Shown here: piece by piece, positions 60,145-60,932 of the stretch
Numbering within the stretch: position 1 is the stretch's first letter
How the letters are laid out: each line of letters starts with the position of its first letter
Virus record (IMG/VR): IMGVR_UViG_3300027788_000010
Location: 1 to 64,000 of that record
DNA from: a virus
Direction: 5' to 3' (one strand)
DNA length: 64,000 nt
Made by a program: the position numbers and the translations under genes
The notes under the pieces: model-generated
What the model saw: the letters and a program-made list of their open reading frames with translations, nothing else
The model's database searches: none
What the model was told of the DNA's origin: nothing

Positions 60145-60174
60145 TTGTTTTTGTTAATTTTTTTATTATCTTTG
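60145..60174 (+). promoter_or_regulatory. Bacteroidota-type promoter for the CAP gene
   Basis: TTG (60145-60147) is followed after 19 bp by TATCTTTG (60167-60174), an exact match to the Bacteroidota -7 box TAnnTTTG. Transcription would start near 60180, giving a ~85-nt leader. The start context 'ATAAAATAAATAAAATG' has no Shine-Dalgarno box, as usual for the phylum. Confidence 0.68.
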
Positions 60175-60266
60175 TAGTATAAATTACTCTATAAGTTGTA
60201 ACCACAAGGATAAATTTTACGTATAACTTACTACTAACCGAATGTCTAATTAATAAAATAAATAAA

Positions 60267-60932
60267 ATGAACAAACTACTAACAACTTTATTACTCATAC
60301 CAATTATCCTTACAGGGCAAAACAAAATAACTTGCATGTACGACTCAACAACTAATAAGTTTAATATACCAACTAATTTGGAGTTAATGTCTTTAGGTAC
60401 ACCTACAATAACTAATAACGACAAATTAATACCCATGGGTGAACTTGACGTTATAGAAATGGATATGGTTTTATTAGATTTAATTAACGACTATAGGGTT
60501 GACAATAACTTATCACCTATAAAGTTCAGTAATAGAGTTTGGGGTGTCGGTTTCCACCATACAACATATATGGTTAGGTCTGGAGATTTAAGTCATAACG
60601 AATCTACCGATTTAAACAATTTTGTAGAATTATCTTTTGATGAACGGGGTGGGAAACTTTGTGATACCGTAGGTAAGGGTTCTTTTTCAATAAGTGCTTA
60701 CGAAAACTTAGCTAGAGTTTATGATACTGGTGATTTGTGGGGTGTCGCTGAAAAAATACTAAATATGTGGATATCTTCCCCAGAACACAACAGTACTCTA
60801 TTAACCAAAACTAATAAATCTTCTTCTCTGTATGGAGCTTCAGTTTCCCATTCAAATAAAAAACGTGGTGTAGAACACACTAAAAACATATGTATTTACA
60901 CCACGTTAAATATCGTAAAAGTATTAAATTAA
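60267..60932 (+). CDS. Secreted CAP-domain (SCP/PR-1-like) protein
   Basis: A 221-aa protein with a signal peptide ('MNKLLTTLLLIPIILTGQNK'; cleavage probably near residue 17). The CAP fold follows: helix 'LLDLINDYRVDNNLSPIKFS', then 'HHTTYMVRSGDLSHNE' (H97/H98, H110), 'SAYENLARV' (E146, N147), 'MWISSPEHNSTLL' (H174), and a final strand 'ICIYTTLNIVKVL'. His and Glu residues match the CAP cavity tetrad. CAP proteins are extracellular with varied roles; the bacterial function is mostly unknown. It is the only plus-strand gene inside the tail module, has its own promoter, and its end overlaps the convergent 197-aa gene by 4 bp. It looks like a horizontally gained accessory gene acting in the infected cell's periplasm. 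Confidence 0.82.
   Translation: MNKLLTTLLLIPIILTGQNKITCMYDSTTNKFNIPTNLELMSLGTPTITNNDKLIPMGELDVIEMDMVLLDLINDYRVDNNLSPIKFSNRVWGVGFHHTTYMVRSGDLSHNESTDLNNFVELSFDERGGKLCDTVGKGSFSISAYENLARVYDTGDLWGVAEKILNMWISSPEHNSTLLTKTNKSSSLYGASVSHSNKKRGVEHTKNICIYTTLNIVKVLN

Follow-up and report, generated by a model that had tools for sequence, protein, structure and literature searches.

Why does a phage keep a gene for an apparently exported protein inside its tail module, on the strand opposite to the genes around it? The locus in question lies in a stretch of 64,000 nucleotides (the window), which is part of a 72,372-base record of an uncultivated virus. A preliminary description had read the gene as a moron encoding a secreted CAP-domain protein, and its coordinates, strand, promoter and domain call all proved correct on re-examination. 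The gene and its relevant neighbours are as follows.

44774-50983, minus strand: tail protein of 2069 aa with a C-terminal M23 peptidase domain
58682-59170, minus strand: tube protein, T4 gp19-like
59268-60128, minus strand: ORF286, the conserved left border of the slot described below, with relatives at about 30-66% identity
60267-60932, plus strand: CAP ORF of 221 aa with an ATG start, encoding a CAP (SCP/PR-1) protein with a predicted signal peptide at about residues 1-17, the CAP domain at about 60-221 and conserved H112/E146/H174
60929-61522, minus strand: ORF197, the right border of the slot, with N-terminal relatives 3′ of the sheath gene in many loci
61529-65656, minus strand: sheath

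The sheath, ORF197, ORF286, the tube, a T4-type baseplate protein and the 2069-aa tail protein belong to a late block on the minus strand. The CAP ORF is opposed in orientation to ORF286, tube, ORF197 and sheath alike, just as had been described, and its stop codon overlaps that of ORF197. The placement of the gene between sheath and tube holds in the broad sense but not directly, as ORF197 and ORF286 intervene. Further plus-strand genes of the record lie outside the late block, at 212-688, 65788-65934 and 67607-71554.

The ORF scores 24.9 bits against the Pfam CAP model (PF00188), above the cut-off of 21.1. As a single sequence, the window CAP found no match among solved structures; a profile of seven phage CAPs reached PDB entries 4ifa (E 1.7e-6) and 4d53, and a profile of thirteen reached both again, plus PrgA at E 0.09. 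A first AlphaFold model reached a mean pLDDT of only 53.9, while a second, built with 13 sequences, had a mean pLDDT of 63.1 and a pTM of 0.60, with residues about 14-59 and 116-140 unreliable. Comparing this second model with the PDB by VIA-align gave 4ifa at Z 15.2 (126 residues, 2.4 Å) and 4d53 at Z 14.6. The top 44 structural matches, at Z 15.2-7.2, are CAP/SCP/PR-1 proteins by title, although among them the titles of two N-DRC linker entries, one toxin/antitoxin entry and one Eimeria antigen mention no CAP domain; the row after these 44 falls to Z 5.0. Two runs with the weaker first model returned a similar list. Most of the CAP set keeps H112, E146 and H174, which in the alignment fall on the SH, GEN and SxxH positions of 4ifa; of the His/Glu/Glu/His cavity tetrad, three positions are thus aligned and the second Glu is not confidently placed. 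On the Pfam score, the profile matches and the structure comparison, the ORF is a CAP-domain protein, and the structure prediction that had been proposed as a check recovered the fold.

Bacterial SCP/YkwD CAPs (PF00188; 4ifa, 4d53 BB0689, 4h0a SAV1118) share the fold, the motif order and the H/E/H positions with the window CAP, which differs from 4ifa, 4d53 and 4h0a in having only about 15-21% identity to them, a ~40-residue N-terminal extension and a phage genome as its home. Phage CAP/SCP proteins are already known, without a known role. Bacillus megaterium phage Stills encodes a YkwD-like CAP protein (PMC4541274), SCP-domain proteins of uncultured Caudovirales are present in BFVD, and a phage CAP weakly matched PHROG 16914, which is in the 'moron' category. 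The Stills protein has a LysM and comes from a phage with a Gram-positive host, whereas the window CAP has no LysM, carries a Bacteroidota-type signal and promoter, and sits in an exchangeable tail-module slot. A limited literature search turned up no account of the slot or of CAPs within it.

Two elements precede the ATG.

60145-60174, plus strand: Bacteroidota-type promoter motif, an exact TTG (60145-60147), N19 and TATCTTTG (60167-60174)
60199-60266, plus strand: leader with a TAACC-N-CGTATA-N-TAACC element and an A-rich stretch before the ATG

For Flavobacterium johnsoniae, the revised promoter consensus reads TAHHTTTG, and the accompanying -33 element is weak (PMC6847099). TTG-N18..20-TAHHTTTG occurs five times in the 72-kb record, always on the plus strand, and two of the five lie just 5′ of plus-strand genes, namely the CAP gene and an SNF2-like helicase at 67607. 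In a first set of related sites, TAT[ACT]TTTG was present within 140 nt upstream of 17 of 20 antisense genes (mean 1.4 and maximum 5 in 500 shuffles), so chance does not account for the promoter. Of 40 antisense-bearing sites, 37 had TAHHTTTG no more than 150 nt from the first antisense ORF; the sites behind both counts were reached by homology to shared neighbours and are not independent, and the conservation is partly common descent. The promoter proposed earlier therefore recurs above unrelated antisense genes in relatives, and the motif appears to persist while the gene below it changes. It often stands 12 nt before the ATG, implying a nearly leaderless message. The CAP gene would thus be transcribed from a promoter of its own, separately from the operon around it, and we consider it rather likely, judging from the motif, that the gene is expressed early.

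In the window scan, CGTATA..TAACC had one match (chance 0.85), and the leader was one of three TAACC..CGTATA matches (chance 0.92). As these figures are near chance, the case for a leader element rests on its recurrence in relatives. The arrangement GTAAC..CGTATA..(T)TAACC..A-rich..ATG is common to unrelated cassette genes (those of the window, L137, L193 and L171, and two-TM genes), and ACAARGATAAATTTTACGTATA is common to the CAP leaders of the window, L171 and L193 despite their differing proteins. The shared leader might act as a promoter of a second type or mark a unit of exchange; single-sequence folding of the CGTATA..TTAACC leader found no common RNA fold. A T4 late promoter, TATAAATA at 60133, is not claimed, most of its 22 copies in the record not being upstream of gene starts.

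Under the Bacteroidetes Q-rule, cleavage of a Sec signal peptide exposes a Gln (PMC5837995). The N-terminus of the window CAP, MNKLLTTLLLIPIILTG followed by QNK, reads by eye as a signal peptide of about residues 1-17 with Gln18 at +1, and so appears to fit this export type. All 11 full-length phage CAPs in the collection have Gln at the predicted +1, as does small secreted cargo of the slot. Neither a type IX C-terminal signal nor a lipobox was seen in the window CAP. Together, the promoter type and the signal-peptide type suggest a Bacteroidota host. Phages with named hosts whose tube proteins are nearest include Flavobacterium and Rhodothermus phages, the best match being a Microcystis phage.

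The 3′ end of the gene holds one more feature.

60850-60932 (about 60859-60907), minus strand: strong RNA hairpin with a U-rich 3′ tail, fold -22.9 kcal/mol, z -4.84

This hairpin, which belongs to the minus-strand transcript, sits inside the 3′-terminal codons of the CAP ORF and is likely the terminator of the ORF197/sheath transcript; the terminator scan, with its loop limit of 8, did not list it. CAP-less relatives also have hairpins at the equivalent place, by eye. The coding sequence of the CAP thus appears to overlap the terminator of ORF197 and sheath.

How stable is the CAP gene at this site? As a direct query, the window CAP had no match among phage records or viral contigs, nor in species genomes. 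Relatives were instead reached through neighbouring genes, by searches with the tube, ORF286 and a two-TM protein that gathered more than 200 loci. Among 65 unique sites with an ORF286 of at least 40% identity, the gap between sheath and ORF286 held antisense genes in 40 and none in 25. The 72 slot proteins comprised 26 two-TM proteins (~80 aa; a share inflated by the use of the two-TM protein as search bait), 17 lipoproteins (~190 aa), 10 small secreted proteins, 11 other membrane proteins, 5 CAPs and 3 singletons. By simple rules, applied partly by eye, all 72 look like membrane, lipoprotein or secreted products. The window's phage has neither the two-TM nor the lipoprotein cargo. The gap thus looks like a variable slot with envelope-directed cargo. 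At the same site, L020 (6144-7151) and L033 (2677-3678) encode a secreted protein of 333-335 aa that gives a weak hint of SprB repeats and whose C-terminus looks, by eye, like a type IX sorting domain.

The nearest relatives of the window's phage (L004, L005, L086, L090 and L180) have no CAP gene at the site, and sister phages lack both promoter and gene there. Absence in the nearest relatives and swapped genes in others rule out a core virion gene, so the CAP is not a virion component shared by all relatives. Judged from gene content, the CAP gene is accessory. The reading as a moron is upheld by its own promoter, antisense orientation, export signal, absence from the nearest relatives and replacement elsewhere by other envelope-directed genes.

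The search for CAP genes at the same site in related phages, which had also been proposed, found them in seven contigs including the window (the others being L091, L166, L167, L171, L137 and L193). L091 is on the same contig as L121, L125 and L169, and L166 and L167 are near identical; a short fragment, L162, probably carries a CAP at the slot as well. The CAP gene comes before the two-TM gene in L091 and L166, after it in L171 and L137, and after the lipoprotein gene in L193. A tree of ORF286 puts the window, L125 and L166 together with five CAP-less phages, at a fork that is not strongly supported, and L137 and L193 elsewhere; the CAP label needs four changes on it. This suggests that CAPs probably reached the slot by several separate acquisitions. 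The simplest story would be an old CAP in the window's clade, its loss in the sister group and separate gains elsewhere, the exact count being unsure.

Slot CAPs share ~25% identity with each other, against 88-95% for the tube. The window CAP is 27% identical to that of L166 and 31% to that of L125, where the tube proteins share 93% and 95% and ORF286 52-56%. The CAP therefore diverges fast compared with the tube. With a CAP relative as query, no cellular relative was found. Related phages also have CAPs away from the slot (L083, L084 with two, L122 and L123), mostly on the strand opposite to their neighbours. CAP genes recur beside a protein family of ~410-430 aa in L083, L084, L123 and L171, a second favoured neighbour, and in L123 a lipoprotein with a phosphodiester glycosidase (NAGPA) domain (654-1376) is encoded beside the phage CAP gene.

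Overall, these observations are best explained by an envelope-protein moron in an exchangeable slot of Bacteroidota phages with T4-like tails, to which we assign a probability of roughly 0.5; that the gene is a moron acting on the envelope, taken by itself, is very probable. Host RNA polymerase would transcribe the CAP gene early from the host housekeeping-type promoter motif, and the protein, its N-terminus now a Gln, would be released to the periplasm or further out. Its conserved cavity would bind a wall or membrane ligand, and the CAP would alter the envelope of the infected cell. It might shield peptidoglycan from the tail-borne wall hydrolase of incoming phages, or inhibit that enzyme, an example being the M23 domain of the phage's own 2069-aa protein. 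For Bacteroidota phages, the slot offers a set of candidate envelope effectors to work from, and it opens phage CAP function to direct testing.

As to the benefit, superinfection exclusion or wall protection is a tentative suggestion by analogy, which we hold at somewhat below even odds. The functions suggested in the preliminary description, surface modification and exclusion, would be in keeping with what the slot carries. Exclusion is preferred because the parts of the slot resemble in kind T4 Spackle and Imm and T5 Llp, because a bacterial CAP/YkwD lipoprotein binds peptidoglycan, and because the phage tail carries an M23 domain. Spackle is early, periplasmic and inhibits the tail lysozyme (PMC7677548), and Llp is a lipoprotein blocking the receptor (PMC9586334). 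The parts lists are comparable in that Spackle is small, exported and early, Llp is an envelope lipoprotein whose gene adjoins a tail gene, and Imm is a small membrane protein; the CAP fold differs from the alpha-helical bundle of Spackle. PADLOC gave no match, comparison of the ~80-aa two-TM cargo with T4 Imm found no homology, and a related phage CAP matched the NCBIfam PgrA surface-exclusion domain far below the cut-off. With no homology to an exclusion protein, the exclusion reading stays an analogy. The many ligands and roles of CAP proteins also count against it. PrgA/PgrA of enterococcal conjugative plasmids does place a CAP domain on a mobile element, with a structure match at Z 8.0-8.7, but it is a large Gram-positive surface protein whose exclusion role is not transferable by fold alone. 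In integrating Porphyromonas gingivalis phages, five genes of unknown function with Q-rule signal peptides have been proposed as envelope modifiers (PMC10367356); the present genes differ in their conserved slot, shared promoter and recognisable CAP cargo. More doubtful still is the stronger proposal of a dedicated, promoter-equipped slot in which unrelated envelope effectors are swapped, with CAPs as a new class of exclusion factor that targets tail hydrolases or the cell wall. Among the exclusion proteins found, those whose mechanism has been solved are all from coliphages.

Alternatively, the CAP could serve the cycle of its own phage by remodelling or stabilising the host wall, to time lysis or to hold the envelope together while virions are made, without exclusion. 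The model for this would be DalA (RSP_1200), a YkwD/CAP lipoprotein of Rhodobacter that binds peptidoglycan (PMC10470522, PMC5442454) and affects division and wall-drug sensitivity. DalA has a CAP/YkwD domain in a Gram-negative envelope, as the window CAP would, but it is a cellular outer-membrane lipoprotein of the divisome, and the window CAP lacks a lipobox; the NCBIfam DalA model had no match to the window CAP and weak matches only to L083 and L084. The L123 pairing of a CAP with a phosphodiester-glycosidase lipoprotein also speaks for wall remodelling. We nevertheless regard it as unlikely, given sister phages with no gene at all at the slot, a promoter of early rather than lysis-time type, and a fast divergence that fits a role in conflict.

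Less probable again is a secreted factor that acts outside the cell, binding lipid, sterol-like molecules or a partner, with effects on biofilm, neighbours or grazers. In its favour, proteins bound for places beyond the periplasm also use Q-rule signal peptides. An extracellular action is known for many CAP proteins, and lipid binding for some (PMC5442454). Against this stand the lack of a visible type IX signal or lipobox in the window CAP and the little time that lytic infection leaves for an outside benefit.

It is similarly improbable that the transcript itself is what matters, with antisense RNA from the conserved promoter delaying late tail gene expression early in infection and the ORFs riding along. 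The promoter is indeed more conserved than the cargo, and the terminator scan found none on the forward strand at the 3′ end of the CAP gene, so the transcript may enter ORF197 and the sheath gene. Yet the cargo looks envelope-like with intact export signals, H/E/H is kept in most CAPs, and promoter and gene are missing together in sister phages.

A tail virion component, for instance a wall-binding decoration transcribed separately by chance, has the location inside the tail module in its favour and is very improbable in view of the signal peptide, the separate host-type promoter, the opposite strand, the absence from the nearest relatives and the replacement by lipoproteins.

Some features lie beside the envelope-protein moron and its slot. 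ORF286, kept beside the tube gene, has HAD phosphatase-like motifs by eye (DWDDN, SIITARG, FSDDD), and no Pfam match was found for it. Many proteins of these phages, ORF197 and proteins of many loci among them, begin with a K(L/I)TEsxLxxLIxxvvxE-like N-terminus, perhaps a leader for packaging or targeting. Beyond the window, the plus-strand ORF at 65788-65934 of the record, between the sheath gene and the next late gene, encodes 48 aa with a ribbon-helix-helix DNA-binding look by eye, and a plus-strand gene at 69372-71081 encodes a 569-aa protein with a peptidoglycan-binding domain.
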